Shown here: piece by piece, positions 639-22,521 of the stretch
How positions within the stretch are numbered: position 1 is the first letter of the stretch
How the letters are laid out: every line of letters begins with the position of its first letter
From: Bacillus sp. KH172YL63
GTDB lineage: Bacteria > Bacillota > Bacilli > Bacillales > Bacillaceae_B
Direction of reading: 5' to 3'
DNA: 64,000 nt
Assembly (NCBI RefSeq): GCF_011398925.1
Contig: NZ_AP022842.1
Location: 484,001-548,000 of the forward strand
Made by a program: the position numbers and the translations under genes
The notes under the pieces: model-generated
What the model saw: the letters and a program-made list of their open reading frames with translations, nothing else
Databases searched by the model: none
Told to the model about the DNA's origin: nothing

Positions 639-658
639 ATTTTTTTTGAATAAAAAAG

Positions 659-699: not shown

Positions 700-712
700 A
701 GGAGGGTTTGGA

Positions 713-1681: not shown

Positions 1682-1697
1682 AAGGGGATGAGTTGGG

Positions 1698-2869: not shown

Positions 2870-2872
2870 AGG

Positions 2873-3361: not shown

Positions 3362-3419
3362 GTAACCCGCTGCATGCAGCGAGGAATAAATGATTGATAA
3401 TCAAAGGAGAGATTTCATT

Positions 3420-3728
3420 ATGGTAAAACTGATCGCATTATACAAGCACCCTGAAAACAAAGAGTCATTCGATGAGCATTATTTCAACACACACGCTCCG
3501 ATCACTGCAAAGATCCCTGGTCTTAAAAAGATGGAAGTGACAAGGATCGTCGGCTCCCCGATGGGTGGAGAAGGCAAGTATTACTTAATGTGTGAAATGT
3601 ATTATGACAGTCATGAAGCATTGAAAGCGGCCATGAAGTCCGATGAAGGAAAAGCATCAGGAAAGGATTTAATGGGATTCGCAGCAGACCTTGTCACACT
3701 CATGATCGGCGAAGAAGTGAATGAGTAG
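3420..3728 (+). CDS. EthD-family small protein
   Basis: Protein of 102 residues of the dimeric alpha/beta-barrel EthD family, recognised by the N-terminal pattern KLIALYKHPE, the EHYFNTHAP segment and the C-terminal LVTLMIGEE. The start at ATG 3420 is chosen because AAAGGAGAG precedes it at good spacing; a start at 3390 has none. EthD proteins often accompany ring-oxidation pathways, but the reaction here is unknown. It overlaps the next gene by 8 bp, so it belongs to the paa operon and may assist the epoxidase or a downstream intermediate; that is inference. Confidence 0.8.
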   Translation: MVKLIALYKHPENKESFDEHYFNTHAPITAKIPGLKKMEVTRIVGSPMGGEGKYYLMCEMYYDSHEALKAAMKSDEGKASGKDLMGFAADLVTLMIGEEVNE

Positions 3729-4500: not shown

Positions 4501-4512
4501 GGAGGCTGCCCC

Positions 4513-5286: not shown

Positions 5287-5310
5287 TTCAATCACAAAGG
5301 AGATGGAGTT

Positions 5311-6828
5311 ATGTCTACAGTTAAAGAGCAAAGCTTTGAAGTACTTGAAATGAAAAGGGATCATTATTCATTGGTGATCAACGGTCAGCGCATGGAGAGC
5401 GGGGCGGGAGAAACCTTTACTACTTACAATCCGGCAACGGGAGAACCGATTGCGACGGTATCACTTGCATCGGTTGAAGACGCGGAAAAAGCGGTCGAAG
5501 CGGCAAGGCATGCGTTTGACTACGGGAAATGGAAGAAGTTCCCGATCAATAAGAGATCCCGGGTGCTGAACAAAATCGCCGGCATCATGAGATCCCGTTT
5601 CAATGAGCTTGTTTCCCTTGAGATCATGGACAGCGGGAAGTCACTGACTGCTGCACAGGGACAGGTGATGCAGGCGATCGAAGACTTTGAATTTTATGCT
5701 GGGGCGATCGTTGGTCACCGTGGGACGGTCAACAACGTGCCTGGTCAATTCACAAACGTGGCTGAGAAAGAGCCAGTTGGTGTGTGCGCCCAGATCATCC
5801 CATGGAATTATCCGCTGATGATGGCGGCGTGGAAGATTGCACCGGCGATTGCAGCAGGCTGTTCGGTTGTCGTGAAGCCGGCGACACTGACGCCGCTTAC
5901 GGCCATCGTCCTTGGCGAAATCTGCATCGAAGCCGGAGTGCCTGAAGGGGTCGTCAACATCATCCCGGGAGCAGGCTCGACAGTCGGAAACTACCTGGTA
6001 GAGCATGAGAAGGTCGACAAAGTGGCTTTCACAGGTTCAACCCCAATCGGTAAAAACATCATGGAAAAAGCATCCCAGACATTGAAGCGTGTCACCCTTG
6101 AATTAGGCGGGAAGTCACCGAACATCGTGTTTGAAGATGCCGATGTGGATGCAGCCGTAGACGGATCGCTGTTCGGAATCTTCTATAATACAGGTCAATC
6201 CTGTGAAGCCCGTTCCCGTTTATACGTCCATGAAGATATTTATGATGCGTTCATGGAAAAGTTCGTAGAGAAGACGAAGAAGCTGAAGCTTGCCGATCCA
6301 CACGATAAAGGGACACATATCGGGGCGATCATCAACCAGTCTCAGCTCGATACGATCGACGGTTACGTACAATCGGCGAAAGAAGAGGGAGCGACAGTCC
6401 TGGTCGGAGGAAAGCCTGCCACCGTAGAAAACTTTGAAAAGGGCTACTGGTATGAGCCGACGATCATCACTGATGTGAACCACGAGATGAAAGTCGTCAA
6501 GGAAGAAATCTTTGGACCCGTTGTCGTAGTGATGAAGTTCAAGGATGAAAAAGAAGCGATCAAGCTTGCAAATGACAGTGAGTATGGACTTGGATCAGCC
6601 GTCTGGACTCAGAATCATGGCCGTGCGACGCGGGTTTCGAAAGCGATCCAGGCAGGTATCGTCATGGTGAACTGTCCGTTCTCCGCATTCCCGGGCACGC
6701 CGTTCGGAGGCTACAAGCAATCAGGATTCGGCCGTGAGCTCTGTGTTGAAACGCTTGATCTCTACACAGAAACCAAAAGCATCATTTCCTATTTCGGTAA
6801 CCGTCCGTTGAATCCATTCGGAGTATAA
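5311..6828 (+). CDS. Aldehyde dehydrogenase of the phenylacetate operon
   Basis: NAD(P)-dependent aldehyde dehydrogenase of 505 residues. Visible motifs: IPWNYPLMM, the nucleotide loop FTGSTPIG, the general base in LELGGKSPN, and the catalytic cysteine in NTGQSCEARSR. It lacks the C-terminal MaoC hydratase domain of the fused ring-cleaving PaaZ (about 680 residues), so it could supply only the aldehyde-oxidising half, acting on the 3-oxo-5,6-dehydrosuberyl-CoA semialdehyde. Alternatively it oxidises phenylacetaldehyde to phenylacetate; the sequence alone cannot decide. Confidence 0.85.
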   Translation: MSTVKEQSFEVLEMKRDHYSLVINGQRMESGAGETFTTYNPATGEPIATVSLASVEDAEKAVEAARHAFDYGKWKKFPINKRSRVLNKIAGIMRSRFNELVSLEIMDSGKSLTAAQGQVMQAIEDFEFYAGAIVGHRGTVNNVPGQFTNVAEKEPVGVCAQIIPWNYPLMMAAWKIAPAIAAGCSVVVKPATLTPLTAIVLGEICIEAGVPEGVVNIIPGAGSTVGNYLVEHEKVDKVAFTGSTPIGKNIMEKASQTLKRVTLELGGKSPNIVFEDADVDAAVDGSLFGIFYNTGQSCEARSRLYVHEDIYDAFMEKFVEKTKKLKLADPHDKGTHIGAIINQSQLDTIDGYVQSAKEEGATVLVGGKPATVENFEKGYWYEPTIITDVNHEMKVVKEEIFGPVVVVMKFKDEKEAIKLANDSEYGLGSAVWTQNHGRATRVSKAIQAGIVMVNCPFSAFPGTPFGGYKQSGFGRELCVETLDLYTETKSIISYFGNRPLNPFGV

Positions 6829-6846
6829 TTCCGCATAAACAAGCAG

Positions 6847-6873
6847 GGGGTTGTCCTATCATGGTCAACCCCT
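6847..6873 (+). other. Hairpin between aldehyde dehydrogenase and hydroxyacyl-CoA dehydrogenase genes
   Basis: GGGGTTG pairs with CAACCCC across a short loop, extended by a CC/GG pair. It is not followed by a T-run, so it is more likely a processing or stability element than a terminator. It sits just before the ribosome site of the next gene. Confidence 0.4.
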
Positions 6874-6898
6874 TATTGCTAGAAAGGGGAAAATGAAT

Positions 6899-7774
6899 AT
6901 GACACAGCATATCGTAGTCGTTGGTTCCGGCGTAATGGGGAGAGGGATCGCCTATGTCTCCGCGACGGGGGGATTTCGCACAACCCTTGTGGATATCAAA
7001 CAGGAGCAGCTGAATCATGCCAAGGATGAAATTCAGCTTCTTTTCCAAAAGGGTCTGGAACGTCAAAAACTGACACAGCAGCAGTATGTAGAGGCCATGG
7101 AGGGTCTGGACTATTCAACGAACCTGTCCATTGCCGTACGGGATGCGGATGTGGTGATTGAAGCCGTCCCTGAAAAAACCGATATCAAACAAGGTGTCTT
7201 CCAAGTACTCGATGCCCATGCCCCTGAAGCATGCTATTTGGCAACGAACACTTCGACGATGAGCCCGACTGAAATCGGCTCCTTTACAAAACGGCCGGAC
7301 AAAGTGATCGCCATGCATTTCTTCAATCCTGTACATAAAATGCCCCTTGTTGAGATTGTAAGGGGATTGGAAACGAGCGATGAAACAGCGGCGGTGATCC
7401 AGCAGGTCGCTGAAAGGATGGGGAAAGAAACGGTTGTCATCAATGAGTTCCCAGGCTTTGTCACAAGCAGGATCAGCGCGCTGGTCGGAAACGAAGCATT
7501 TTACATGCTGCAGGAAGGGCTCGGTTCTCCGGAAGAAATCGATAAAGCGATCAAGCTCGGCCTCAACTACCCGATGGGCCCATTTGAGCTCGGGGACCTT
7601 GTTGGATTGGACACACGCTTGAATAACCTGAAATACCTTCACGAAAAGCTTGGGGAAAAGTATCGCCCGGCACCGCTCCTGGAGCAATACGTAAAGGCAG
7701 GCCGTCTGGGGCGGAAAACAGGCAAGGGTGTTTATGACTATCTGAAGGTGAAAGAAAAGGAGCATCAGTCATGA
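6899..7774 (+). CDS. paaH: 3-hydroxyacyl-CoA dehydrogenase (PaaH-like)
   Basis: Oxidises 3-hydroxyadipyl-CoA to 3-oxoadipyl-CoA with NAD. The N-terminal Rossmann motif is GSGVMGRGIA, the catalytic region reads HFFNPVHKMPLVEI, and the C-terminal domain carries NYPMGPFELGDLVG. Start ATG 6899 is preferred because the ribosome site (AAAGGGG, 6883-6889) is about 9 bases away; ATG 6893 is too close. The product is 291 residues, the usual length of the short single-function enzyme. The stop overlaps the thiolase start. Confidence 0.9.
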   Translation: MTQHIVVVGSGVMGRGIAYVSATGGFRTTLVDIKQEQLNHAKDEIQLLFQKGLERQKLTQQQYVEAMEGLDYSTNLSIAVRDADVVIEAVPEKTDIKQGVFQVLDAHAPEACYLATNTSTMSPTEIGSFTKRPDKVIAMHFFNPVHKMPLVEIVRGLETSDETAAVIQQVAERMGKETVVINEFPGFVTSRISALVGNEAFYMLQEGLGSPEEIDKAIKLGLNYPMGPFELGDLVGLDTRLNNLKYLHEKLGEKYRPAPLLEQYVKAGRLGRKTGKGVYDYLKVKEKEHQS

Positions 7775-8976
7775 GGGAAGTCGTCATTGTCGATGCCGTC
7801 AGGACACCGATTGGCAAATATAAAGGCTCCCTGAAAGAGGTGCGGCCCGATGACCTCGGTGCCCATGTCATTAAAGCGCTTGTGGAACGGAACCCCCATG
7901 TGGCCCCGGAGAGCATCGAGGAAGTCGTTTTCGGGAATGCGAACGGGGCAGGGGAGGACAACCGGAACGTAGCCCGGATGTCTGTACTTCTTGCCGGCCT
8001 GCCGGTTGAAGTCGGTGCGACCACAATCAACCGGCTGTGCGGATCAGGCCTTGATGCCGTCAACTATGCGGCAAGGGCGATCCTCGCTAACGAAGGGGAT
8101 ATTTTCATAGCGGGCGGGACAGAAAGCATGACCCGTGCTCCCTACGTCATGGCCAAATCTGCACAGGACTTTCCGAGAGGGAATATGGAAATGTTTGATA
8201 CCACGATCGGCTGGCGGTTCGTCAATCCAAAGCTGAAGGAAGAATACGGCACCGATTCCATGCCTGAAACCGCCGAAAATGTCGCGAAGCAGTTCGGCAT
8301 CTCCCGGGAAGAACAGGACCACTTTGCCTACTGGAGCCAAATGAAAGCAAAACAGGCGATGGATGAAGAACGGTTCAAAGATGAAATCGTCCCGGTGGAG
8401 CTCAGGGACCGCAAAGGAAATTCAACCACCTTCGGGAGGGATGAACATCCAAGACCGGAGACGAATCATGAGAAATTACAGAAACTGAAGCCTTTATTTC
8501 CAGGAGGGACCGTGACGGCAGGGAACGCCTCAGGGGTCAATGACGGGGCATCGGCCCTGTTGCTCATGAGCAGGGAGAAGGCGGACGAACTGGGCATCAC
8601 CCCCCTTGCACGCTATATGACGTCTGCCACGGCAGGTCTCGAACCGTCCGTCATGGGCCTTGGACCGATCTATGCCACAAGGAAGGTGCTGAAGCGTTCC
8701 GGTCTCGAAATGGACCAGGTAGGCCTAGTCGAGCTGAACGAAGCCTTTGCCGCACAATCCATCGCCTGCATCCGTGAACTCGGTCTCGATGAAGAAAGGG
8801 TCAACGTCAACGGAGGAGCCATCGCCTTTGGCCACCCACTCGGTGCAAGCGGTGCCCGCATCCTTACCACCCTTATATATGAAATGAAAAGAAGAAACGT
8901 ACGCTACGGCCTTTCCACCATGTGCATCGGTGTCGGTCAGGGGATCGCGACACTGGTGGAAAACATGCAATCGTAA
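7771..8976 (+). CDS. paaJ: Acyl-CoA thiolase (3-oxoadipyl-CoA thiolase candidate)
   Basis: Last enzyme of the pathway, cleaving 3-oxoadipyl-CoA to succinyl-CoA and acetyl-CoA. It has 401 residues with the nucleophile motif NRLCGSG, the NEAFAAQ segment, [14 protein letters not shown] and the C-terminal active-site cysteine in CIGVGQG. It starts inside the paaH stop (ATGA-type overlap), so the two are coupled. Thiolase identity is certain; the oxoadipyl specificity is inferred from the operon. Confidence 0.88.
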
Positions 8977-9914: not shown

Positions 9915-10790
9915 ATGAATACAAGATCAATGATCTTCACACTGTATGGTGATTACATACGCCACTATGGAAATAAAATCTGGATCGGCAGCCTGATCCG
10001 TCTTCTCAATGAATTCGGTCACAACGATCAGGCGGTGCGGGCCGCGATTTCGAGGATGAATAAGCAAGGCTGGGTCCAGGCTGAGAAGCAGGGGAACAAA
10101 AGCTACTATTCCCTGACTGAGCGGGGGGCGACCCGTATGGAAGAGGCGGCCAACCGGATCTTCAAGCTTAAGCCCGAGCAATGGGACGGCAAATGGAGGA
10201 TCCTCATGTATTCAATCCCCGAGGAAATCAGAAGCATCCGGGACGAATTGAGGAAAGAGTTGGTGTGGAGCGGATTCGGCACGCTGTCCACGAGCACCTG
10301 GATCTCACCTAATAATCTGGACACCCAGGTTCGCTCTTTGATTGATAAATATGATATTAAAGACTATGTCGACTTCTTCATCGCTGAGTATGAAGGTCCT
10401 AACGAGAATCAAAGATTGATTGAAAAGAGCTGGGACCTGAATGACATCAACGACCGTTATCAGGAATTCATCTCCCACTACAGTCAGCGATATATGATAG
10501 ATAAAAGTAAAATCGGGAAGGGGCAGATGACAGACGCAGAATGCTTCGTAGAAAGAACGAAGCTCGTCCATGAGTACCGGAAATTCCTGTTTGTCGATCC
10601 AGGACTGCCTGAAGAGCTCCTTCCCGAGAAATGGCTCGGTGCCCACGCAGCCACCCTGTTCGGTGAGTACTACAAAGAGCTTGCAGAACCGGCTTCCCGT
10701 TTCTTCGAGAGCGTATTCGAAGACGGTAACGAATTAAAAAACAAAGACCACAGCTACAACGTCATGACCCATCCTTTACTTCTTGATTGA
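9915..10790 (+). CDS. paaX: Phenylacetate operon repressor, PaaX family
   Basis: Transcriptional repressor of 291 residues expected to respond to phenylacetyl-CoA. The N-terminal winged-helix domain is clear (IWIGSLIRLLNEFG, then AVRAAISRMNKQGWVQ, and YYSLTERG), followed by the PaaX central domain (WRILMYSIPEEIRSIRDELRKEL) and the C-terminal PaaX domain. It lies 0.9 kb beyond the last paa gene with its own ribosome site (AAAGGAG) and terminator. Likely target: the spacers around paaK and paaA. Confidence 0.92.
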   Translation: MNTRSMIFTLYGDYIRHYGNKIWIGSLIRLLNEFGHNDQAVRAAISRMNKQGWVQAEKQGNKSYYSLTERGATRMEEAANRIFKLKPEQWDGKWRILMYSIPEEIRSIRDELRKELVWSGFGTLSTSTWISPNNLDTQVRSLIDKYDIKDYVDFFIAEYEGPNENQRLIEKSWDLNDINDRYQEFISHYSQRYMIDKSKIGKGQMTDAECFVERTKLVHEYRKFLFVDPGLPEELLPEKWLGAHAATLFGEYYKELAEPASRFFESVFEDGNELKNKDHSYNVMTHPLLLD

Positions 10791-12123: not shown

Positions 12124-13131
12124 GTGAAGAAGAAGAGTTTATTGCTTATTGTCGTCTCGATGTTATTGGGAATGCTGGCTCTGTCAGGGTGTGGCAGTGA
12201 TAAGAGTTCCGGTGGTGAAGATGGAGAGAAACAGTACGTCATCGGGGTGACCCAGATTGTCGAACATCCATCTTTGGATGCAGCGTTTGAAGGATTCAAG
12301 AAAGCACTCGCTGAAAATGGGTTCAAAGAAGGGGAAAATGTAAAATTTGATGTTCAAATCGCCCAGGGTGATCAAAGTAACTCACAAAGCATCGCGAAGA
12401 ATTTCGTCGGGGACGGTGTGGACCTCATCTTTGCAAACTCGACCCCAAGTGCACAAACGGCATTGAACGCAACGAGGGATATCCCGATCATTTTCACCTC
12501 AGTAACCGACCCTGTGGGTGCTGAATTGGTCAAGTCATTTGACGAGCCTGGTGAGAATATTACCGGAACAACAGATACGCATCCGGAAGCGATCTCCAAA
12601 ACACTGCATTTTATCACGGATGAAATGAAGGCGAAGAAGATCGGGATTGTTTATAATTCCGGTGAACAAAACGCTGTCGTGCAGGTAGCTGAAGTGAATA
12701 AGCTTGCAAAAGAAAGCGGAGTCGAAGTGGTAGAAGCCACGGTTTCAACGTCTGCCGATGTTAAACAAGCGACTGAATCCCTCGTGGGTAGAGTCGATGC
12801 CATTTATATCCCGAAAGACAATACAGTCGTGTCGGCGCTTGAATCCGTCATCACTGTAGCGAACGAAAAGGATATCCCTCTATTCGTAGGAGAGCTTGAT
12901 TCACTGAAAAAAGGTGCGATCGCAGCGAGCGGATTCAGCTACGAAGACCTTGGTTACCAAACCGGCTTGATGGCCGTGCAGGTTCTAAAAGGGGAGAAAA
13001 AACCTTCTGAAATCCCTGTACAGGCTCCGGAAAACTTTGAGTTGATGTTCAATAAGAAAGCAGCTGAAGAACAAGGTGTGGAAGTGAAGGAAGCCTGGTC
13101 TGAACTAGGGAAGTTTGTAGAAGAACAATAA
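12124..13131 (+). CDS. ABC importer substrate-binding lipoprotein (ABC_sub_bind family)
   Basis: Extracytoplasmic solute receptor of 335 residues. The N-terminus is a lipoprotein signal peptide: KKK, a hydrophobic stretch, and lipobox LSGC with the acylated cysteine near residue 23. The mature part follows the TrpX/YcjX-type periplasmic-binding pattern (ANSTPSAQTAL, FTSVTDPVGAELV, IPKDNTVVSAL). Homologues have been linked to tryptophan, tyrosine or other small ligands, so an aromatic amino acid is attractive in this neighbourhood, but the ligand is unproven. First gene of a three-gene importer. Confidence 0.9.
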   Translation: MKKKSLLLIVVSMLLGMLALSGCGSDKSSGGEDGEKQYVIGVTQIVEHPSLDAAFEGFKKALAENGFKEGENVKFDVQIAQGDQSNSQSIAKNFVGDGVDLIFANSTPSAQTALNATRDIPIIFTSVTDPVGAELVKSFDEPGENITGTTDTHPEAISKTLHFITDEMKAKKIGIVYNSGEQNAVVQVAEVNKLAKESGVEVVEATVSTSADVKQATESLVGRVDAIYIPKDNTVVSALESVITVANEKDIPLFVGELDSLKKGAIAASGFSYEDLGYQTGLMAVQVLKGEKKPSEIPVQAPENFELMFNKKAAEEQGVEVKEAWSELGKFVEEQ

Positions 13132-13147
13132 GAAGGGATGATGATTC

Positions 13148-14176
13148 GTGCCAACTGCAATATTTGCCTCCTTTGAATCTGGAATCATATACGCAATCAT
13201 GGCCCTCGGAGTCTATCTGTCCTTTCGGATACTGGATTTTCCTGATTTAACGGTCGACGGCAGCTTCGTGACCGGGGCCGCCGTCGCAGCGACCATGATT
13301 GTCAGCGGGGTTAACCCGGTCATCGCCACGCTGACAGCGATCATTATCGGATTTGTCGCGGGCTGTATCACAGGATTGCTTCATACGTTTGGAAAAATCA
13401 ATGCGCTTTTATCCGGGATATTGATGATGATCGCCCTCTATTCGATCAATCTCCGGATTATGGGAAGATCGAACGTGCCCCTCCTGAACCAGGACACGGC
13501 ATTTACAGGCGTGGAAGGGTTCTGGTCCCCGCTCGGGATCGACGCAGCCCTCAATAAGCTGTGGATGGCAGTGGGACTCGGGAATCCTGTCCCTGGCACA
13601 TGGAGCATCCTTTTCGTCATGACAATCATCACACTGCTGATCAAATTTTTGACCGACGGTTTCCTGAAGACAGAAGTCGGATTGGCACTGAGGGCGACCG
13701 GGGATAATCAGCGGATGATCCGCAGTTTCTCGGCCAATACGAATTTGATGATCATCCTTGGATTGGGGATCTCAAATGGGATGGTCGCCTTATCCGGGGC
13801 ACTGATTGCCCAGTACAGCCGGTTCGCCGATGTCGGAATGGGAATCGGGATGATCATCATCGGTCTTGCTTCGGTCATCATCGGTGAGGCGTTATTCGGT
13901 ACCAAAACGATTGCACGTACGACGCTCGCAGTCATCGGGGGCGCGATCATTTACCGTTTGGTCGTATCGATGGCCCTTCGAGTCGATTTCCTTGAAACAG
14001 GGGATATGAAACTGATTACGGCGACGATTGTCATCCTTGCCCTCGTCATGCCAAAGGTGATGGATCGCTATAAAGATAAGAAACGAAAGTCCCAGCGGCT
14101 GGCAGAACGGATGAACAGGGCCCCGATAACGGATGGAAAGGGTGAGAGCGGTGTTACAGTTAAATCGAATCCATAA
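13148..14176 (+). CDS. ABC importer permease
   Basis: Integral membrane permease of 342 residues in the BPD_transp_2 (branched-chain/ribose-type) family, with about eight or nine hydrophobic segments and a cytoplasmic basic tail. Signature stretches are LDFPDLTVDGSFVTGAA near the N-terminus and LRATGDNQRMIRSFS, the coupling-helix region that touches the ATPase. GTG 13148 is used as start, 16 bp after the lipoprotein gene. The 3' end overlaps the ATPase gene. Confidence 0.9.
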   Translation: MPTAIFASFESGIIYAIMALGVYLSFRILDFPDLTVDGSFVTGAAVAATMIVSGVNPVIATLTAIIIGFVAGCITGLLHTFGKINALLSGILMMIALYSINLRIMGRSNVPLLNQDTAFTGVEGFWSPLGIDAALNKLWMAVGLGNPVPGTWSILFVMTIITLLIKFLTDGFLKTEVGLALRATGDNQRMIRSFSANTNLMIILGLGISNGMVALSGALIAQYSRFADVGMGIGMIIIGLASVIIGEALFGTKTIARTTLAVIGGAIIYRLVVSMALRVDFLETGDMKLITATIVILALVMPKVMDRYKDKKRKSQRLAERMNRAPITDGKGESGVTVKSNP

Positions 14177-14945
14177 AGTATTCAACGAAGGGACACCGGA
14201 TGAAAAAATCGCCCTCGATGACATCCAGCTTTCCCTTAAACCGGGTGATTTCGTCACCGTCATCGGGAGTAATGGGGCAGGGAAATCAACGCTGATGAAC
14301 ATCGTGTCAGGCGTCCTGCTCCCGGACATCGGAAACGTGGTGATTGATGATCACGACGTCTCGAAGGTGTCTGAATATAAACGCTCGAAACTGATCGGGC
14401 GCGTCTTTCAGGACCCAATGGCAGGAACGGCGCCGTCCATGACGATCGAAGAAAATCTCGCCATGGCCTATTCGAGAAACCGGACAAGAACCTTTAAACT
14501 TGGGGTCACCAAAAAGCGTAAAGCTTACTTTAAAGAAGTCCTTGAAACCCTACATTTAGGACTGGAAAACAGGTTAAATGCCAAAGTGGGATTACTGTCC
14601 GGCGGAGAGCGGCAGGCGCTTTCACTCTTGATGGCGACGTTCACAGAACCGTCGATCCTCCTGCTGGATGAACATACGGCGGCGCTTGATCCGGCCCGTG
14701 CCGACCTGATCACGAACCTGACCAAGGAAATCGTCGAGAAGTACAAGCTCACGACGCTCATGGTCACCCATAACATGCAGCAGGCACTCGACCTTGGAAA
14801 CAGGCTGATCATGATGGACAAAGGACAGATCATCCTTGAAGTGAACGAAGCCGAGAAGAAACACCTGACAGTCGAAGGCCTCCTCCACGAATTCCAGCGA
14901 ATCCGCGGAAGCAAACTGGCCAGCGACCGGGCGCTCCTCTCCTGA
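14151..14945 (+). CDS. ABC importer ATPase
   Basis: Nucleotide-binding subunit energising the importer. Walker A GSNGAGKST, signature LSGGERQAL, Walker B with switch LLLDEHTAALDP and H-loop MVTHNMQQ are all present. I take GTG 14151 as start because it has AAAGGGTGAG upstream and gives the family's usual short N-terminus (LQLNRIHKVF); ATG 14133 is also in frame. It overlaps the permease gene by 26 bp and ends the operon with a terminator 20 bp on. Confidence 0.92.
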   Translation: MLQLNRIHKVFNEGTPDEKIALDDIQLSLKPGDFVTVIGSNGAGKSTLMNIVSGVLLPDIGNVVIDDHDVSKVSEYKRSKLIGRVFQDPMAGTAPSMTIEENLAMAYSRNRTRTFKLGVTKKRKAYFKEVLETLHLGLENRLNAKVGLLSGGERQALSLLMATFTEPSILLLDEHTAALDPARADLITNLTKEIVEKYKLTTLMVTHNMQQALDLGNRLIMMDKGQIILEVNEAEKKHLTVEGLLHEFQRIRGSKLASDRALLS

Positions 14946-15188: not shown

Positions 15189-15218
15189 TTGACTATTTAT
15201 AAAACAAAATGTTATTAT
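15189..15218 (+). promoter_or_regulatory. Sigma-A-like promoter upstream of the thioesterase gene
   Basis: TTGACT (15189-15194), 18-bp spacer, TATTAT (15213-15218), 59 bp before the start codon. The A+T-rich flank supports it; the exact -10 register is uncertain. Confidence 0.5.
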
Positions 15219-15276
15219 ATCGTTGAATTAACGTTATATAAAAAATTATTGTCTGTTCGTTTAAAGGGGGAAAGCA

Positions 15277-15672
15277 ATGAAGCCTGGATTAGCAGAAGGA
15301 CATTCGGCCGCCGTACTGACGGAAGTGACCTCCGATATGTATGCCCAATTCGAAGGAAGCGTTGTGCACCCGGTCTATTCAACGGTCTCGATGGTGTACC
15401 ACATGGAGTGGGCATCCAGGAAAATCATCCTTCCCTTTCTGGAAGAGCATGAAGAGGGAATGGGCGCACAAGTGAACGTGGAGCATATGGCACCGGCGAA
15501 AGAAGGTTCACGACTTGAAATCAAAGCGATCGTCATCAAATATGAACGAAACATCATCCTGACCGAAGTGACGGTCCTGGATCGAGAGAATGCCAGAGTG
15601 ATAGGGAAAGGCGAAGTGAAACAAGTCGTGCTGGCAAAAGAAAAAATTAACGAAAGAATAAAAGGGAGTTAG
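15277..15672 (+). CDS. Hotdog-fold acyl-CoA thioesterase (FlK-like)
   Basis: Small thioesterase of 131 residues. The single-hotdog pattern resembles fluoroacetyl-CoA thioesterase and its relatives: GSVVHPVYST early, MVYHMEWASRKIILPF on the central helix, GAQVNVEHMAPAKEGSRLEI in the core strands. Substrate unknown. Its position directly before phenylalanine dehydrogenase and a 2-oxoacid dehydrogenase complex suggests it removes CoA from an aromatic or branched acyl-CoA (for example phenylacetyl-CoA overflow); that is inference. ATG follows AAAGGGGG. Confidence 0.78.
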   Translation: MKPGLAEGHSAAVLTEVTSDMYAQFEGSVVHPVYSTVSMVYHMEWASRKIILPFLEEHEEGMGAQVNVEHMAPAKEGSRLEIKAIVIKYERNIILTEVTVLDRENARVIGKGEVKQVVLAKEKINERIKGS

Positions 15673-15707
15673 CTCCATTTTGACGAAAGGTAAAAGGGGG
15701 AAGCTAC

Positions 15708-16877
15708 GTGTCTAACACATCGACAAAACTGAAAGCGTTTACAAATGACGGGCTTGCAGGGGGAAATGACATGGATATGTTTCAAAAGATACAAAATCAT
15801 GAGCAGGTTATATTCTGCAATGATGAAGAAACAGGGCTCAAAGCCATCATCGCCATACATAATACCACGCTCGGTCCAGCCCTTGGCGGCTGCCGGATGA
15901 GACCTTACGCATCGGTCGATGAAGCGTTGGAAGATGTCCTGCGACTGTCAAAAGGCATGACGTATAAATGTGCAGCAGCCGACGTGGATTTTGGCGGAGG
16001 GAAAGCGGTCATCATCGGCGATCCTCAAAAAGACAGACACCCTGAACTTTTCCGGGCATTCGGTCAATTCGTAGAATCCCTCAACGGCCGATTCTACACG
16101 GGAACCGATATGGGCACGACCCCGGAGGATTTCGTCTATGCCCTGAAAGAAACAAACTGCATCGTCGGGGTCAATGAAGAATACGGCGGAAGCGGGGATT
16201 CATCCATCCCGACAGCGATGGGGGTCATGTACGGATTGGAAGCGACAAATCAAAACGTCTGGGGCTCAAAAGACCTTCACGGCAAAAGCTACGCCATCCA
16301 GGGACTGGGGAAAGTAGGCTTTAAAGTAGCCGAACGCCTGATGGAAGAAGGAGCTGATCTCTACGTCACGGATATCAGTCAGAAATCGATCGACCAACTG
16401 CTTGCAAAAGCAAAGCAGATCGGTGTGGGTATCAAAGTCGTATCAGGAGAGGAAATCTACTCCGTCAACGCAGATGTCTTCGTCCCATGTGCCATCGGGG
16501 GGATTATCAACGATCATACGGTAGATCAATTGAAAGTAAAGGCGGTCGTAGGTTCAGCCAACAATCAGCTACTGGACATATCCCACGGAAGGAAGCTGCA
16601 TGAAAAAGGAATCCTATACGCACCCGACTACATCGTCAACGCAGGCGGCCTGATCCAAGTAGCAGACGAATTGTACGAACCGAACAAAGAGCGGGTCCTG
16701 CAAAAAACAAGCGCGATCTATAACAGCCTTCAAAATATTTATCTTCAATCAGAAAATCAGCATCTGACCACGGTAGAGGCGGCGAATCGCTTTTGCGAAG
16801 ACCGGATCCACTCCCGGACAAAGCGGAACAGCTTCTTCTCGCATGGGAAGCGTCCGAAGTGGTCGGTTAGGAATTAG
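15708..16877 (+). CDS. pdh: Phenylalanine dehydrogenase
   Basis: NAD-dependent oxidative deamination of L-phenylalanine to phenylpyruvate. The glutamate/leucine/phenylalanine/valine dehydrogenase core is plain: LGGCRMRPY, the catalytic lysine in GGGKAVI, and Rossmann motif GLGKVG. The segments [14 protein letters not shown] and the C-terminal [12 protein letters not shown] match what I know of Bacillus-type phenylalanine dehydrogenases rather than leucine dehydrogenases. Length is 389 residues. GTG 15708 has a GGGGGAA ribosome site; a later ATG near 15771 is possible. It lies 35 bp after the thioesterase gene, probably one operon. Confidence 0.87.
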
Positions 16878-16973
16878 GGTTGATGGTTGTGGTATGGAGG
16901 GGATGGGTTGGGCGATAGTTTGGGGAAGTTGCTGACTGGGCATTGGGGAAATTGGATGAGGGGTTTGAGGTTA

Positions 16974-17078
16974 AGTTACGCAATGGAGGCGGAAAGTTAC
17001 GCAATGAACGTTAAAAGTCACGCAATAACCGGTGAAAGTTGCGCAATAACCAGTCAAACTCACGCAATTAATGTACTG
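16974..17078 (+). repeat. 21-bp direct repeat array, block 1 (five units)
   Basis: Five tandem units of exactly 21 bp start at 16974, 16995, 17016, 17037 and 17058. Each contains a core of the form TNRCGCAAT (for example TTACGCAAT, TCACGCAAT, TTGCGCAAT) followed by a variable half. A 153-bp spacer follows (17079-17231). Confidence 0.92.
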
Positions 17079-17231
17079 AGCAACACTGAAGAGTGACGAG
17101 TAGAGTAAAAAACGTCCTCTAGAAAGAGAGTTATAGTGAAAAGTTACAAATTTTTCAGATATGGCGGCGCGCAAACATTAAAAATTGCCCTTCTCCAAAG
17201 TGAAAATGTCCAAATTGCATGAGTGATTTGA

Positions 17232-17336
17232 AGTTACGCAATGAACGTTAAAAGTCACGCGATAACCAGCGAAAGTTACGCAATAAATGTTCAAAGTTGC
17301 GCAATAACCAGCCAAACTCACGCAATTAACGTACCG
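17232..17336 (+). repeat. 21-bp direct repeat array, block 2 (five units)
   Basis: Five units start at 17232, 17253, 17274, 17295 and 17316, exactly 258 bp after block 1. The following 153-bp spacer (17337-17489) is clearly homologous to the first one, with shared blocks GCGGCGCGCAAAC and AAAATGTCCAAATTGCATGA, so the superunit is 105 bp of array plus 153 bp of spacer. Confidence 0.92.
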
Positions 17337-17489
17337 AGCACTCCTGTAGAGTGACAAATAGAGTTAAAAACGTCTTCTGAAAAGAGGGTTAGGGTGAAAA
17401 GTTACAACTTTTTCAGATATTGCGGCGCGCAAACAGTAAAATTTGCCCTGCTCCAAAGTGAAAATGTCCAAATTGCATGAGGAATTATA

Positions 17490-17594
17490 AGTTACGCAAT
17501 AAACGTTAAAACTCACGCAATAACTAGCGAATCTCACGCAATAAATGCCCAATATCACGCAATAACCACCCAATCTCACGCAATAACCGTTCCA
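17490..17594 (+). repeat. 21-bp direct repeat array, block 3 (five units)
   Basis: Five units start at 17490, 17511, 17532, 17553 and 17574, again exactly 258 bp on. The sequence after it (17595-17790) is a decayed version of the spacer (GAAGTTAC, CTTTTTCA and AACATTGAAACGAC remnants). No protein-coding gene is credible between 16878 and 17855. Confidence 0.9.
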
Positions 17595-17800
17595 AGCACC
17601 ATCCCAAAAGCTAAAAAAACAGCAAAAATGCCCTCCCAACACAAAAAGAGACGACGAAGTTACACTTTTTCATCCTTCAAACCGAACAAACATTGAAACG
17701 ACCTTACTAATCAGCACGACACCATCAGAATGCAGACCTCCACCCAAGACCCCACACATCTCCCTGCACAAGAAACCGGCAAACCTATATACGAGTAGAC

Positions 17801-17824
17801 AGGAATCCTGACCGGATTCCTTTT
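17801..17824 (+). terminator. Hairpin just upstream of the 2-oxoacid dehydrogenase operon
   Basis: AGGAATCC (17801-17808) pairs with GGATTCCT (17814-17821), followed by TTT. It stands 32 bp before the E1-alpha start, so it could end readthrough from pdh or act as an attenuator or operator for the operon. I cannot see a convincing promoter nearby. Confidence 0.5.
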
Positions 17825-17855
17825 CCTAAAAATATGCACCATAAGAGGTGATGAG

Positions 17856-18920
17856 ATGATCGAGGAATTTCAGCTGGTCCAGGTCATGGACCGGGAAGGT
17901 GAGTTAGTTGAAAGCGGGTATGAAAAGGAAATTTCAGAGGACTTGGCCAGAACGTTTTACCGGCATTTGATGAGGATCCGGACGTTTGACCGGAAAGCGG
18001 TGAGTTTGCAGCGTCAGGGGCGGATCGGGACGTATGCACCGTATGAAGGGCAGGAGGCTTCCCAGGTGGGGAGTGCGCTTGCTCTTAAGGAGAAAGATTG
18101 GCTGTTTCCGTCTTACCGGGACCATGGTGCGACGATGACGTTTGGGCATTCGTTGCTTCATATCCTTCTTTTTTGGAAGGGGAGGAATGAAGGGTGCGTG
18201 CCTCCTGAAGGGAAGAATATTTTCACGCCGGGGATTCCGATTGCGACACAGCTGCCTCATGCGGTCGGAGCGGCGTATGCGGAGAAGCGGAAGGGAACCG
18301 GGAATGCGGCGATTGTTTATTTTGGAGACGGCGCCACTTCCGAAGGGGATTTTCATGAAGGGTTGAATTTGGCCAGCGTATGGTCGGCTCCGGTTGTCTT
18401 TTTTAATCAAAATAATCAATACGCGATTTCTGTACCTATCCATAAACAGATGAAGACGAAGACGATTGCCCAGAAAGCCCTTGCCTACGATATGCCTAGT
18501 GTCCGGATCGACGGCAATGATGTATTTGCGGTTTATTTCGAGACGCTGAAGGCATTGGAGGGGGCAAGGAAGGGGGACGGACCTTCCCTGATCGAGTCGG
18601 TGACGTGGAGATACGGTGCCCATACGACTGCCGATGATCCGACGAAGTATCGGGATCAGCAGGAGAGTGAGTCGAGGCGGAAGGAGAATGATCCGGTCGA
18701 TCGCCTGACCAGATTCATGGAGCGAAGAGGATGGATTGATGAGGATTGGAAGGTTTCTGTGGAGAAGGAGTGTGCGAAGGAAGTCGATATGGCGGTTGAG
18801 GCGCTGGAAGCTTATCCGGAAGCAGAGCCAAGTTTGATTTTTGATCATGTGTTTGCAACTCCGACATGGACGATCCAGGAACAAAAAGAAAAGCTCCTTG
18901 AGCAATTGAGAGGTGAATAG
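17856..18920 (+). CDS. 2-oxoacid dehydrogenase E1 component, alpha subunit
   Basis: Thiamine-diphosphate decarboxylase subunit of a 2-oxoacid dehydrogenase complex, 354 residues. The thiamine-diphosphate motif runs from GDGATSEGDFHEGLN to NNQYAIS. The N-terminal EGQEASQVGSA segment and C-terminal RYGAHTTADDPTKYR are as in PdhA/BkdA-type alpha subunits. The overall pattern is closer to pyruvate-dehydrogenase-type alpha chains than to the branched-chain type, but specificity is not readable. A GGGGGACGGACCTTCCC repeat copy lies inside the gene at 18572-18588. It heads a complete E1a-E1b-E2-E3 operon. Confidence 0.92.
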   Translation: MIEEFQLVQVMDREGELVESGYEKEISEDLARTFYRHLMRIRTFDRKAVSLQRQGRIGTYAPYEGQEASQVGSALALKEKDWLFPSYRDHGATMTFGHSLLHILLFWKGRNEGCVPPEGKNIFTPGIPIATQLPHAVGAAYAEKRKGTGNAAIVYFGDGATSEGDFHEGLNLASVWSAPVVFFNQNNQYAISVPIHKQMKTKTIAQKALAYDMPSVRIDGNDVFAVYFETLKALEGARKGDGPSLIESVTWRYGAHTTADDPTKYRDQQESESRRKENDPVDRLTRFMERRGWIDEDWKVSVEKECAKEVDMAVEALEAYPEAEPSLIFDHVFATPTWTIQEQKEKLLEQLRGE

Positions 18921-18921
18921 G

Positions 18922-19917
18922 ATGAGCACCTTAACGAAAATGAAGACGTTGACGATGGTTCAGGCCATCACGGATGGGATGAGAGTGATGCTTGAGGAAC
19001 ATGATGATGTCCTGTTACTGGGTGAGGATATCGGAACGAATGGAGGGGTGTTCCGGGCGACGGACGGGCTGCAGCAGGAATTCGGGGAAGACCGGGTCAT
19101 TGATACCCCGTTAAGTGAAGCCGGGTTCATCGGTGCGGCCATTGGAATGGGGTTGAACGGCTTCCGTCCCGTGGCTGAGGTCCAGTTCCTCGGGTTCATC
19201 TACCCTGCATATGAGCAGATCATGACACATGCTTCACGCCTACGCTCACGTACCCTTGGCCATTTCACGTGCCCATTGGTGATCAGGGCTCCGTATGGGG
19301 CTGGAGTGAGGGCACCTGAGATTCATTCCGACAGCACAGAGGCCCTTTTCACCCATATGCCGGGAATCAAGGTGGTATGTCCTTCGTCGCCTTACGATGC
19401 AAAGGGACTGCTGATTGCAGCGATAGAAGACCCTGATCCGGTTTTGTTCCTTGAGCCGATGAGATGTTACCGATCGTCCAGGGAAGAAGTGCCGGAAGAG
19501 AAATATACGGTGGAGATCGGAAAGGGAAAGGTAGTCAAAGAGGGGGAGGATGTGACCCTCATTGCCTGGGGGGCGATGGTCAAGGTTGCAGAAGATGCTG
19601 CAAAAGCAGCGGGCGAGAAAGGCATCGACTGTGAGGTCCTCGACCTTAGGACACTCTACCCTCTAGATAAAGATCTGATCGCTGACTCTGTACAGAAGAC
19701 AGGCAGAACGGTGATAGTCCATGAAGCGCATGCAACGGGCGGTGTCGGAAATGATGTGCTGGCGATCATCAATGACACGTCATTTTTATATCAGAAGGCG
19801 CCGACTGAACGGGTGACGGGATTTGATACCCCGGTTCCGTATTTCGGATTTGAAGATTTCTATTTACCCGACAGTAAACGTGTGCTCGCTGCAGTTGAGA
19901 AAGTGGCACGCTATTAG
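18922..19917 (+). CDS. 2-oxoacid dehydrogenase E1 component, beta subunit
   Basis: Transketolase-like partner of the alpha subunit, 331 residues. The N-terminal LLGEDIGTNGGVFRATDGL, the PLSEAGFIGAAIGMGLNG segment and AEVQFLGFIYPA are diagnostic; the C-terminal transketolase domain carries VLDLRTLYPLD and VHEAHATGGVG. ATG 18922 is used; it follows the alpha stop by one base, and GAGGTG just upstream lies inside the end of the alpha gene. Confidence 0.93.
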   Translation: MSTLTKMKTLTMVQAITDGMRVMLEEHDDVLLLGEDIGTNGGVFRATDGLQQEFGEDRVIDTPLSEAGFIGAAIGMGLNGFRPVAEVQFLGFIYPAYEQIMTHASRLRSRTLGHFTCPLVIRAPYGAGVRAPEIHSDSTEALFTHMPGIKVVCPSSPYDAKGLLIAAIEDPDPVLFLEPMRCYRSSREEVPEEKYTVEIGKGKVVKEGEDVTLIAWGAMVKVAEDAAKAAGEKGIDCEVLDLRTLYPLDKDLIADSVQKTGRTVIVHEAHATGGVGNDVLAIINDTSFLYQKAPTERVTGFDTPVPYFGFEDFYLPDSKRVLAAVEKVARY

Positions 19918-19932
19918 ACGAGGAGGGAGTTC

Positions 19933-21093
19933 ATGGAAGTAAAGCTTCATGATATCGGAGAAGGCATGACCGAAGCCAACATCAATCACTTTCTTGTGAA
20001 GGTCGGGGATGTGGTGAGAGCGGACCAGCCATTGGTGGAAGTACAGACGGATAAGATGACGGCGGAGATTCCTGCGCCTTTTTCCGGTGTGATCAAGGAA
20101 ATCACAGTCAGGGAAGGTGAGACGATACCGGTCGGCTCGACGGTCCTGCTGATGGAAGAAGGAGCCGGGGGAAGCAGGCGGATCGTTCCAGCCAGCACTC
20201 AGGTGGTCAGGAAAAAGAGGATACTTGCATCCCCGTATACGAGAAAGATCGCCAGGGAACATGGCATCAATATAGAAGAAGTGACCGGTTCCGGAGCAGG
20301 TGGCCGGGTGCTGGATGAAGATGTCTTTCTTTATATGAAAGAAGACAAAGGGCCGGTTCCGGAAAGGGAAGAAGAAGCGCCGATTCTCCACGAGGAAGAG
20401 CCACACACGATCCCGTTCCGGGGCAGGAGAAAACAAATCGCTGCGAAAATGTCCCAGTCGCTGAGGACGATCCCTCACTGCACACACTTTGAGGAAATTG
20501 ACGTTACGAATCTATTAATCTGGAAAGATTCAATGAAAGAAAGCGGACAGAGCATTTCAATGGGGGCTTATTTTATCAAAGTCCTGTCGGTTTGTTTAAA
20601 AGAGTTTCCTATTTTCAATGCCCGTCTCAATGAAGAGGAAGAATGTGTCGTGCTTCAGTCTCAGCATCATATCGGCATCGCAGTCGATACGGATGAAGGA
20701 TTGATCGTTCCGGTCATCAAAGGGGTACAGGAAAAATCAATGAAAGACATTCACAGTGAGATGAAGGAACTGACCAGGAAGGCAATTGAAGGCAAGCTTT
20801 CGATGGCCGACATCAAGGGAGGGACGTTCACCGTCAGCAATGTCGGACCGTTGGACGGATCGATCGGTGCAACCCCGATCATCAACGATCCGGAAGTCGC
20901 CCTTGTCGCTTTCCATAAGACGAAGAAGCGGCCGATGGTGAACGAAAAGGATGAAATCGTCGTCCGCTCGATGATGAATGTGTCGATGTCCTTCGATCAC
21001 CGGGTCGCAGACGGGGGAACGGCCGTGAAGTTCACAAACCGATTAAGGGATTTGATCGAACAACCTCAATCCATGCTTCTGGAGTTGATATAA
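19933..21093 (+). CDS. 2-oxoacid dehydrogenase E2, dihydrolipoamide acyltransferase
   Basis: Core acyltransferase, 386 residues. Domain order: one lipoyl domain (about 1-75, lipoylated lysine in TDKMTAEI at residue 41), a charged linker, the peripheral-subunit-binding domain (SPYTRKIAREHGIN, then GSGAGGRVL), a second acidic linker, and the catalytic domain ending in SFDHRVADGG with the active-site histidine. A single lipoyl domain is as in branched-chain and acetoin-type E2. It abuts the E3 gene with no gap. Confidence 0.93.
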   Translation: MEVKLHDIGEGMTEANINHFLVKVGDVVRADQPLVEVQTDKMTAEIPAPFSGVIKEITVREGETIPVGSTVLLMEEGAGGSRRIVPASTQVVRKKRILASPYTRKIAREHGINIEEVTGSGAGGRVLDEDVFLYMKEDKGPVPEREEEAPILHEEEPHTIPFRGRRKQIAAKMSQSLRTIPHCTHFEEIDVTNLLIWKDSMKESGQSISMGAYFIKVLSVCLKEFPIFNARLNEEEECVVLQSQHHIGIAVDTDEGLIVPVIKGVQEKSMKDIHSEMKELTRKAIEGKLSMADIKGGTFTVSNVGPLDGSIGATPIINDPEVALVAFHKTKKRPMVNEKDEIVVRSMMNVSMSFDHRVADGGTAVKFTNRLRDLIEQPQSMLLELI

Positions 21094-22521
21094 ATGGTAG
21101 TGGGAGAAATTACAGAAGAAAAGGACATCATCGTCATCGGGGGCGGTCCCGGCGGGTATCATGCTGCGATCAGGGCAGCGGCCCTCGGCAGACAGGTCAC
21201 ATTGATCGAGCGGGAGGAGCTTGGGGGGACCTGCCTGAATAAAGGGTGCATCCCCTCAAAGGTATTCACCCATTTTGCCCAGGAATTTAAAAAGACGGCG
21301 CATCTGAAGGAAATGGGTCTGGAGTATGGAGAAGTGGAAGCGAATCTTGCCTCTCTGCAACTCTATAAAAATAAAAAAATATCCCAGCTCCGGGCAGGTG
21401 TGGAGTCACTTTGTAAAGCGAATAAGGTGGAGGTCATGAAAGGATCGGCTGCCTTTCTGTCAGAATCCCGTATCGGGGTTGAAAACGGTCATGAGTTTTC
21501 CCTTTTCAACTTCAAGGAGGCGATCGTGGCGACGGGTGGGGTCTTTCATTATCCTGAAGGAATCAAGTTTGATGGGAGCTATATCCTGAAGGAAAGGGAA
21601 ATCTTTCAGCTCGAGGAAATCCCGGAAGAACTCATCATCTGCGGAGCCGATTATATTTCATTGGAAATCGCATCGGTGTTCGCCACTCTCGGGAGTGCCG
21701 TCACGTTGCTCCTCACCGGCGACCTGCCATTTGATCCGGCGATTACGAAAGAACTCTTCAGGCAGCTGAAAAAACAGCGCATCAACGTCATCAAAGATGC
21801 CGCCATCGAGGAAGCCTTCGGGAGGGACGGACACGTCATCGTCACACTCGAAAAAGCGTCTGGGGAAACAGTATCCATCCAGGGTTCACATTTTGTCGTC
21901 AGCGGTGAAACGAAGCCAGACCTGACAAACACCGGCCTCGACCGCCTGTCGGTTGCCCTGACGGACAGTGGCTATATCAAGACAGATCGGGAGGGACGGA
22001 CCTCGATTCCACATATTTGGGCGATCGGGGACGTCACGGAAGGTCCGTCCCTCGCAGTGAAAGCGATCAAGCAGGGGAAGGCGGCGGCTGAGGCGGCGGC
22101 CGGGTTGAAGGTGGAGGTGGATTTGGGGTTTGTGCCGAGTGTGGTGCAGATGAGTCCGCCGATTGCGTGTGTGGGGCTGACTGAGGAGGAAGCGCGTGAG
22201 CTGGGGTATGCGGTGTCAGTGAGTGAGAATCCTGTCAGGGGGAATGGGTATGCCCTGCTGACGGATGAGAAGGATGGTCTGGTGAAAGTCGTTTCAGACA
22301 GTGAATCGGACGTGATCCTCGGCATCCATATCATCGGTCAGGGTGCGGTGGAGCTCATCACATCAGGCATCCTTGGTCTTGAGATGGGCGCACGGGATGA
22401 AGATTTCCGATTTCCTCTCTATCCTCATCCGAGCATGAATGAAAGCCTTTTAGAAGCGGTTGAAGGACTGAAGGGGGATGCCGTGCATATGCCTCCGAGG
22501 AAAAAACAGCCGGTGAGGTAG
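21094..22521 (+). CDS. 2-oxoacid dehydrogenase E3, dihydrolipoyl dehydrogenase
   Basis: FAD flavoprotein reoxidising the lipoyl groups of E2, 475 residues. FAD motif GGGPGGYHAAIRA, redox-active disulfide GGTCLNKGCIPSK, the FAD loop AIGDVTEGP and the C-terminal interface HPSMNESLLEAV with its catalytic histidine are present. Two inverted repeat-motif copies (21991-22004 and 22038-22053) lie inside the gene. From about 22080 to 22260 the codons turn strikingly G-ending (GTG, GGG, CTG) compared with the rest. Confidence 0.92.
   Translation: MVVGEITEEKDIIVIGGGPGGYHAAIRAAALGRQVTLIEREELGGTCLNKGCIPSKVFTHFAQEFKKTAHLKEMGLEYGEVEANLASLQLYKNKKISQLRAGVESLCKANKVEVMKGSAAFLSESRIGVENGHEFSLFNFKEAIVATGGVFHYPEGIKFDGSYILKEREIFQLEEIPEELIICGADYISLEIASVFATLGSAVTLLLTGDLPFDPAITKELFRQLKKQRINVIKDAAIEEAFGRDGHVIVTLEKASGETVSIQGSHFVVSGETKPDLTNTGLDRLSVALTDSGYIKTDREGRTSIPHIWAIGDVTEGPSLAVKAIKQGKAAAEAAAGLKVEVDLGFVPSVVQMSPPIACVGLTEEEARELGYAVSVSENPVRGNGYALLTDEKDGLVKVVSDSESDVILGIHIIGQGAVELITSGILGLEMGARDEDFRFPLYPHPSMNESLLEAVEGLKGDAVHMPPRKKQPVR
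21991..22053 (+). repeat. Inverted pair of the GAGGGACGGACC motif inside the E3 gene
   Basis: GAGGGACGGACCTC (21991-22004) and GGAAGGTCCGTCCCTC (22038-22053) face each other across 33 bp of coding sequence. They encode EGRTS and EGPSL respectively, on either side of the conserved AIGD segment. Confidence 0.8.

Follow-up and report, generated by a model that had tools for sequence, protein, structure and literature searches.

Complexes that would carry phenylpyruvate straight to phenylacetyl-coenzyme A (phenylacetyl-CoA) have precedents. In Streptomyces pristinaespiralis, the pyruvate dehydrogenase (PDH)-like complex PglB/PglC is described as converting phenylpyruvate to phenylacetyl-CoA in the biosynthesis of phenylglycine and pristinamycin (PMC7089894). 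A 2008 paper on Exiguobacterium sibiricum suggested, in one sentence, that a pyruvate dehydrogenase encoded beside phenylalanine dehydrogenase (PheDH) could convert phenylpyruvate; phenylacetate is named as the product, and the passages on it contain no test and no survey (PMC2615787). In Phaeobacter, phenylalanine is described as passing via phenylpyruvate directly to phenylacetyl-CoA, with phenylacetate skipped (PMC7497051). Our search of open-licence PMC papers, in which absence counts for little, found no test or survey of the complex described below. Here we analyse a 64,000-nucleotide stretch of Bacillus sp. KH172YL63 (hereafter the window; positions 484001-548000 of one 4.25-Mb contig), which encodes a complete 2-oxo acid dehydrogenase complex between the phenylacetate (paa) genes and the homogentisate genes. 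The genome is of Rossellomorea type, and the nearest genus-named relatives of the E1 alpha subunit (E1a) are from Rossellomorea (P0002, 87% identical; L058, 89%). Judging from gene content, gene order, distribution and a shared promoter motif, we consider it highly probable that the complex is an arylpyruvate dehydrogenase of the paa regulon, which would turn phenylpyruvate, CoA and NAD into phenylacetyl-CoA, CO2 and NADH. The operon and its upstream region read as follows.

15189..15242, + strand: promoter-like pair TTGACT-18-TATTAT (15189-15218) and operator-like TAACGTTATATAAA (15229-15242)
15277..15672, + strand: FlK-family hotdog acyl-CoA thioesterase (Pfam FlK PF22636, E 2e-31)
15708..16877, + strand: PheDH (ELFV dehydrogenase; TGTDMG motif)
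16966..17605, + strand: intergenic ACGCAAT repeats with 21-bp and 258-bp periods, between PheDH and E1a
17856..18920, + strand: E1a (TIGR03181, PDH_E1_alph_x, 466 bits against a cut-off of 411)
18913..19917, + strand: E1 beta subunit, E1b (PRK09212, 308 bits, below the cut-off of 321)
19933..21093, + strand: E2 dihydrolipoamide acyltransferase with one lipoyl domain, an E3-binding domain and a catalytic domain (Pfam)
21094..22521, + strand: E3 dihydrolipoyl dehydrogenase (TIGR01350, 417 bits against a cut-off of 409; CxxxxC motif as CLNKGC)

The reading frames of E1a and E1b overlap by 8 bp. E1a, E1b, a lipoyl-bearing E2 and E3 are encoded together with their motifs intact, as in an E1ab-type 2-oxo acid dehydrogenase complex. 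According to an earlier note on this DNA, the thioesterase, PheDH and all four genes of an E1a-E1b-E2-E3 operon lie between paa/paaX on one side and the homogentisate genes on the other; we find this gene set at these coordinates, all on the + strand. Going by its published description, PglB/C and the window complex share the proposed conversion, an alpha/beta E1 of PDH type and a thioesterase (PglD) encoded in the same operon. As described in the source, PglB/C differs in that it serves antibiotic biosynthesis, that oxidation by PglA comes next, and that the genes listed as pglA-E include none for an E2 or E3.

A search for the E1 domain located it at four places in the genome. Besides the window, these are a PDH-type operon (L006), a branched-chain 2-oxo acid dehydrogenase (BKD)-type operon with phosphate butyryltransferase (ptb) and butyrate kinase (buk) (L005), and an oxoglutarate dehydrogenase with its E2 (L007). 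The BKD name of L005 comes from its ptb-buk neighbours and gene order, its E1 and E2 having no NCBIfam match at E <= 1e-110. The window operon is the fourth 2-oxo acid dehydrogenase complex of this genome. Its E1a, E1b, E2 and E3 are 39, 51, 35 and 37% identical to their PDH-type counterparts and 35, 46, 34 and 33% identical to those of the BKD-type operon. In the E1a tree (113 rows, built by a quick method with SH-aLRT support only, and with long PDH and BKD branches) the window complex falls in a clade separate from PDH; it is not an orthologue of the universal pdhABCD, which is represented by L006, nor of the bkd operon, represented with its ptb/buk context by L005. All 61 Bacillales genomes sampled have an E1a of the PDH type and one of the BKD type, so the window complex comes on top of a complete set. 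Database names of its relatives are pyruvate, 2-oxoisovalerate or 3-methyl-2-oxobutanoate dehydrogenase.

Compared with the Bacillus-type PDH (PdhABCD; solved E1 1w85), the window complex keeps the E1a-E1b-E2-E3 order, the thiamine diphosphate-binding residues and the active-site histidines. It differs in having Thr59 and Glu64 for Phe and Ala, and its GAHTTADDP loop is one residue shorter than that of 1w85. The solved BKD relative 1um9, whose source organism we take to be Thermus, has the same architecture and a loop of equal length; the difference from BKD lies in the genome's own BKD-type operon being a separate locus.

We then turned to the distribution of the complex, using an E1a search threshold of E <= 1e-100 and samples of 36 genomes of the genus and 299 genomes of Bacillales; all counts are uncorrected for phylogeny. 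E1a is present in 35 of the 36 genomes of the genus. One Rossellomorea genome (G014) is without E1a, PaaA and PheDH alike. Among the Bacillales genomes, 124 have the complex, 126 PaaA and 116 PheDH. PaaA accompanies the complex in 117 of 124 genomes and occurs in 9 of the 175 without it. PheDH accompanies it in 108 of 124, each of them also with PaaA, and none of the three genes is found in 159 of 299. A hand count by genus gives 49 genera with both complex and PaaA, 4 with the complex only, 6 with PaaA only and 57 with neither. The earlier note had proposed a genome survey for such co-occurrence; complex, PheDH and PaaA stand together in 108 of 299 genomes. In a phylum-wide sample of 398 genomes, E1a matches were found in 8, PaaA in 11 and both in 7.

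The genes are also mostly close to each other. PheDH lies within 500 bp upstream of the complex on the same strand in 97 of the 124 complex-bearing genomes and within 5 kb in 8 more; otherwise it is 5.3 kb downstream (1 genome), on another contig (2) or not found (16). PaaA is on the same contig within 25 kb in 94 of the 124, farther away in 8, on another contig in 15 and absent in 7. Gene neighbourhoods were read in 80 named loci, the best 80 of 573 relatives, so that distant relatives are under-sampled, and neighbours were labelled from BLAST matches to the window's own genes plus a few typed genes. By E1a identity the loci form groups X (58 loci, at least 55%), D (12 loci, 48-54%) and H (10 loci). 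Within 10 kb, the 58 X loci have a core paa gene (paaA-D or X) in 43, PheDH in 43, FlK in 40 and TrpX in 28, and at least two genes of 4-hydroxyphenylacetate (hpa) type in 10; the paa count of 43 was used over 44 because L083 is linked to paa merely by a thiolase. In 56 of the 58 there is some paa gene, PheDH or an aminotransferase, or else two or more hpa genes; such an aromatic-type neighbour was also found in 8 of the 12 D loci and 1 of the 10 H loci (L129).

Gene order is maintained across widely separated lineages. In Exiguobacterium, the paa operon is divergent from FlK-PheDH-E1a-E1b-E2-E3; Thermoactinomyces has paaF-like and paaG-like genes followed by PheDH, E1a, E1b and E2; Alicyclobacillus has aminotransferase-E1a-E1b-E2-(TetR)-paaA; and a Bacillus metagenome-assembled genome has E1a-E1b-E2-E3-PheDH-paaABCD, with E3 reading as two open reading frames (ORFs). 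The complex is linked both to a source of phenylpyruvate and to a sink for phenylacetyl-CoA, the pairing expected of an arylpyruvate dehydrogenase complex. In the window, the genes further upstream are the following.

39..8976, + strand: paa operon, with the C-terminal part of PaaK, paaA, B, C, D, an EthD protein, F, G, an aldehyde dehydrogenase, H and J (NCBIfam/Pfam)
9915..10790, + strand: PaaX repressor (TIGR02277, 349 bits against a cut-off of 265)
12124..14945, + strand: TrpXYZ-type ABC importer (TrpX model, 289 bits, below the cut-off of 390)

The paa operon is the consumer of phenylacetyl-CoA. It is headed by paaK, whose start lies upstream of the window (L008, 11314). PaaA, PaaC and PaaD score above the cut-offs of their models, PaaK reaches 635 bits against a cut-off of 646, F, G and J are below theirs, and paaB is labelled by gene position alone. 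No PaaE-like reductase was recognised among the typed paa ORFs of the window, the part of the genome searched for PaaE. Downstream of E3 lie genes for 4-hydroxyphenylpyruvate dioxygenase (HPD), an aminotransferase and homogentisate-type proteins. The match to hmgA is weak, its 66 bits falling far below the cut-off of 511. Further downstream, at 28.3 kb, comes an ilv-leu biosynthetic operon.

The FlK-PheDH and paaK promoters have an operator-like motif in common. The 14-mer TAACGTTATATAAA has two exact sites in the 4.25 Mb, one before FlK and one before paaK, the latter ending 28 bp ahead of the predicted paaK start (L008). With one mismatch allowed there are 4 genome sites against 3 for a reversed control, and hence the weight lies solely on the two exact sites. 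A related 11-mer was scanned for, with up to 2 mismatches, in the 220 bp upstream of genes in the named loci; the expected numbers come from shuffles that keep base composition only, and related species are not independent. It was observed before FlK in 27 of 40 (7.0 expected), TrpX in 16 of 28 (5.2), a FabK-like gene in 12 of 37 (4.2) and paaX in 9 of 35 (3.4), and it was not enriched before PheDH (2 of 46; 5.2 expected) or E1a (1 of 73; 7.5 expected). This pattern is consistent with a single regulator, probably PaaX, and with transcription of the operon starting ahead of FlK. A consensus scan gave no + strand match for a separate promoter before E1a, and the scan is uninformative (8 promoters against a shuffled mean of 7.8). 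PaaX is the candidate regulator of both the paa and the FlK-PheDH promoters. The 14-mer is unlike the E. coli PaaX site, given as TGATTC-N27-GAATCA (PMC9493321).

Two genes, those of the thioesterase and PheDH, precede E1a. PheDH is 47% identical to the leucine dehydrogenase (LeuDH)-type paralogue of the same genome. The first Gly of its TGTDMG motif is kept in 46 of 46 named orthologues; the paralogue has TAEDVG, and Ala stands at this T(A/G)xD position also in five aligned solved LeuDH-type chains. We take Gly versus Ala here to be a determinant of PheDH versus LeuDH. The thioesterase belongs to the same Pfam family, PF22636, as the fluoroacetyl-CoA thioesterase FlK, and its T36, E44 and H70 align with FlK Thr42, Glu50 and His76, presumably the catalytic residues; with family and residues together it reads as an FlK-like thioesterase. 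Its match to FlK itself is weak (E 2e-5), the nearest solved chain being 2cwz (E 4e-23).

Taken together, these genes suggest the following route. Phenylalanine would be imported by the TrpXYZ-like ABC importer, a probable uptake system for aromatic amino acids, and PheDH would then remove its amino group to give phenylpyruvate. E1, which depends on thiamine, would decarboxylate phenylpyruvate and load the phenylacetyl group onto the lipoyl arm of E2, which would hand it to CoA, with E3 reoxidising the lipoyl arm with NAD. The paa pathway would then receive phenylacetyl-CoA with no free phenylacetate on the way and with none of the ATP that PaaK spends. The FlK-type thioesterase would probably free CoA from surplus phenylacetyl-CoA, so the venting role given to it in the earlier note is plausible. 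That note had also held that the complex uses phenylpyruvate to make phenylacetyl-CoA, for which the comparative evidence argues: the complex is extra to PDH and BKD, it is co-inherited and mostly clustered with PheDH and paa across Bacillales, the FlK-PheDH promoter has its operator-like motif in common with the paaK promoter, and no other enzyme dedicated to consuming phenylpyruvate was recognised in the genome. PaaK would be bypassed for phenylalanine, as the note proposed, and not replaced: at the head of the paa operon and in the same regulon, it would handle exogenous phenylacetate.

A variant of this arrangement is found beside hpa genes. Seven complex-bearing genomes are without PaaA (G086, G123, G139, G190, G202, G240 and G304). 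Five were read as fetched loci (L205-L209), and G123 and G304 share coordinates with the named loci L090 and L098. Two or more hpa-type genes are present in six of the seven; the stretch read in G240 (L209) contains a single one, a relative of HpaI. A HisC-like aminotransferase stands beside the complex in all seven. The hpa labels rest on typed representatives (HpaG, HpaF-type isomerase, HpaE, HpaB and HpaI). With L087, L088, L089 and L099, the hpa-side loci that contain no paa gene number 11, of which 6 are named and 5 fetched. The HisC-like aminotransferase occurs in 9 of the 11, and in 10 the complex adjoins the gene for an esterase or a 4HBT thioesterase. Such a hydrolase would be needed by hpa chemistry, because the hpa pathway begins with the free acid. 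No FlK was found in the 6 named hpa-side loci. In the E1a tree, X and hpa rows form one clade (support 99) with the hpa rows nested within X, the hpa label requiring 3 changes, and with the D rows outside; an 80-row clade (support 89) holds X, hpa and D together with two unlinked rows, and L129 sits with Thermoactinomycetaceae. With 11 complexes beside hpa genes, the family is better named arylpyruvate dehydrogenase.

At the residue level, E1a position 59 is Thr in all X (58), D (12) and H (10) loci and Phe in 30 of 30 PDH and 30 of 30 BKD sequences. Position 64 is Glu in 56 of 58 X and 12 of 12 D loci, Ser in 9 of 10 H loci, Ala in PDH and Gln in BKD. Phe59 of PDH and BKD presumably lines the pocket for the substrate side chain, and Thr59 would therefore leave room for a ring; a search of open-licence PMC papers on the pocket residues returned no paper. 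We rejected Thr59 as a stand-alone aromatic marker, as it reaches haloarchaeal and other loci without aromatic links; it appears to mark a wider family and is supportive at most, no proof of aromatic specificity. Trp251 was rejected as a marker as well, being kept in just 50 of 58 X loci, with Tyr or Phe in the D loci. The Virgibacillus loci L099 and L123 have lost both Glu64 and Trp251 in E1a, perhaps a sign of changed specificity.

On balance, we lean, by a modest degree, towards a broader reading, in which these complexes are a distinct Bacillota class devoted to arylpyruvates and marked by E1a Thr59/Glu64, whose partner pathway has switched more than once between paa and hpa. Together with PheDH, they would be the standard ATP-free entry of phenylalanine into aromatic catabolism in bacilli, and this would be the natural role of many PheDHs used in biocatalysis. 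As part of the same reading, the hpa branch would convert 4-hydroxyphenylpyruvate to 4-hydroxyphenylacetyl-CoA, followed by hydrolysis to 4-hydroxyphenylacetate. Nothing on a dehydrogenase complex for that conversion was found in the open-licence PMC literature.

The plain alternative already named in the earlier note is a second pyruvate or branched-chain 2-oxo acid dehydrogenase complex that lies near paa by chance. The 51% identity of E1b to the PDH E1b, an E1a that passes TIGR03181 nearly as well as the genome's own PdhA, and the ilv-leu operon at 28.3 kb speak for it. Separate PDH, BKD-type and oxoglutarate complexes in the genome weaken it, and since the PDH and BKD types are separately present both here and in all 61 sampled genomes, we rejected it as the principal explanation. 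In addition, the complex tracks PaaA (117 of 124) and PheDH (108 of 124), and more than one ilv-leu-type gene in the 10-kb flanks read was seen only in Geomicrobium L109, the first gene of the ilv-leu operon occurring alone in the flanks of L058, L059 and L113. We regard this explanation as improbable. A little more improbable, in our judgement, is a dehydrogenase of broad aromatic or mixed 2-oxo acid specificity, with 4-hydroxyphenylpyruvate or indolepyruvate in place of phenylpyruvate as its chief physiological substrate. The 11 hpa-side loci with their aminotransferases and hydrolases, and the resemblance of the importer to TrpXYZ, would suit such an enzyme. Most X loci, however, adjoin PheDH and paa, the phenylacetyl-CoA route, the HPD and homogentisate genes already serve tyrosine in the window, and the nesting of the hpa rows within the X clade, with its three label changes, argues against it too.

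Decarboxylase and ferredoxin routes for phenylpyruvate are known in other bacteria. An enzyme of either kind encoded elsewhere could deliver phenylacetaldehyde or phenylacetate to PaaK and leave the complex to another use; the presence of PaaK at the head of its operon would fit. The genome has seven TPP_enzyme_C proteins, namely pyruvate oxidase, a PorB/KorB-type beta subunit, MenD, IlvB, Dxs, transketolase and L220, and none of the seven was recognised as a phenylpyruvate or indolepyruvate decarboxylase. L220, an acetolactate-synthase-like enzyme that falls below the cut-off of every model, is the opening for this explanation, and the sole ferredoxin oxidoreductase beta subunit is that of PorB/KorB type, which speaks against it. 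We consider such a route very improbable. A search of the genome for phenylalanine hydroxylase gave no match.

Several observations weigh against an arylpyruvate dehydrogenase and were considered together, L220 being one of them. With 466 against 471 bits, TIGR03181, a model named for pyruvate dehydrogenase, does not tell the window E1a from PdhA. PaaA occurs without the complex in 9 of 299 genomes and PheDH without it in 8, and PheDH was not found at the cut-off in 16 of the 124 complex-bearing genomes. X loci L096 and L101 (2 of 58) and 4 of the 12 D loci are without an aromatic neighbour in the stretch read. Thr59 is found in the unlinked L210-L213 and in 10 of 10 H loci, of which nine (L128, L130-L137) come from haloarchaea or Bipolaricaulota and show no aromatic linkage. 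In five of the seven phylum-wide genomes with both genes (G330, G377, G416, G504 and G666), E1a and PaaA are more than 500 kb apart. The E1a of these five is only 48-54% identical to that of the window. Where the E1a locus was read, in G330, G416 and G666, neither paa genes nor PheDH nor an aminotransferase was among its neighbours; these three distant complexes may have another use. Not all relatives at 48-54% identity have an aromatic context, and the X group makes the strongest case. Finally, the 978-bp gap between PheDH and E1a in the window, which holds the ACGCAAT repeats, makes co-transcription uncertain in this strain. Such a gap is unusual: PheDH lies within 500 bp in 97 of the 105 genomes that have it upstream on the same strand within 5 kb, and across the 41 named loci in which PheDH is no more than 3 kb upstream, the spacing is -118 to 359 bp, below 100 bp in 38 of them.

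If an arylpyruvate dehydrogenase is indeed what the operon encodes, it would define the phenylpyruvate step of phenylalanine catabolism in a large bacterial group, a step that conserves NADH and saves the ATP of PaaK. It would bear on annotation in about 41% (124 of 299) of the sampled Bacillales genomes and would give a role to many bacillar PheDHs, the complex being present in 108 of 116 PheDH-bearing genomes. It would also provide an enzyme for making arylacetyl-CoA straight from amino acids.

Some further features of the window and of the named loci were observed. A second ACGCAAT repeat region, at 40671-40755, has the 21-bp period; the 258-bp period was seen only in the 16966-17605 region. 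A small EthD-domain protein (3390-3728) is encoded within the paa operon. The FabK-like gene, at 10903-11859, encodes a FabK/nitronate-monooxygenase-like flavoprotein; it is conserved near paaX and labelled in 37 of the 80 named loci. A hexapeptide-repeat protein (L078, 743-1270; a 19-member cluster in the named loci), possibly PaaY-like, is often encoded on the opposite strand between paaX and the FabK-like gene, a place where the window does not have it.

Among individual loci, L080 bears the label Rossellomorea aquimaris; in the E1a tree it falls with Pseudalkalibacillus, and no HPD gene was seen downstream of its complex; horizontal transfer and a mislabelled genome are the alternatives. 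Two Paenibacillus loci, L114 and L116, have a diverged E1a-E1b-E2. L114 contains an FtsX-type permease gene and L116 a ketoacyl-synthase polyketide gene, each with a homologue in the other locus, and the complex there may provide an acyl-CoA starter of an unusual kind. A lipoyl-synthase-like gene stands just upstream of the complex in L128, and its homologues (cluster c41) precede E1a in L130-L133.

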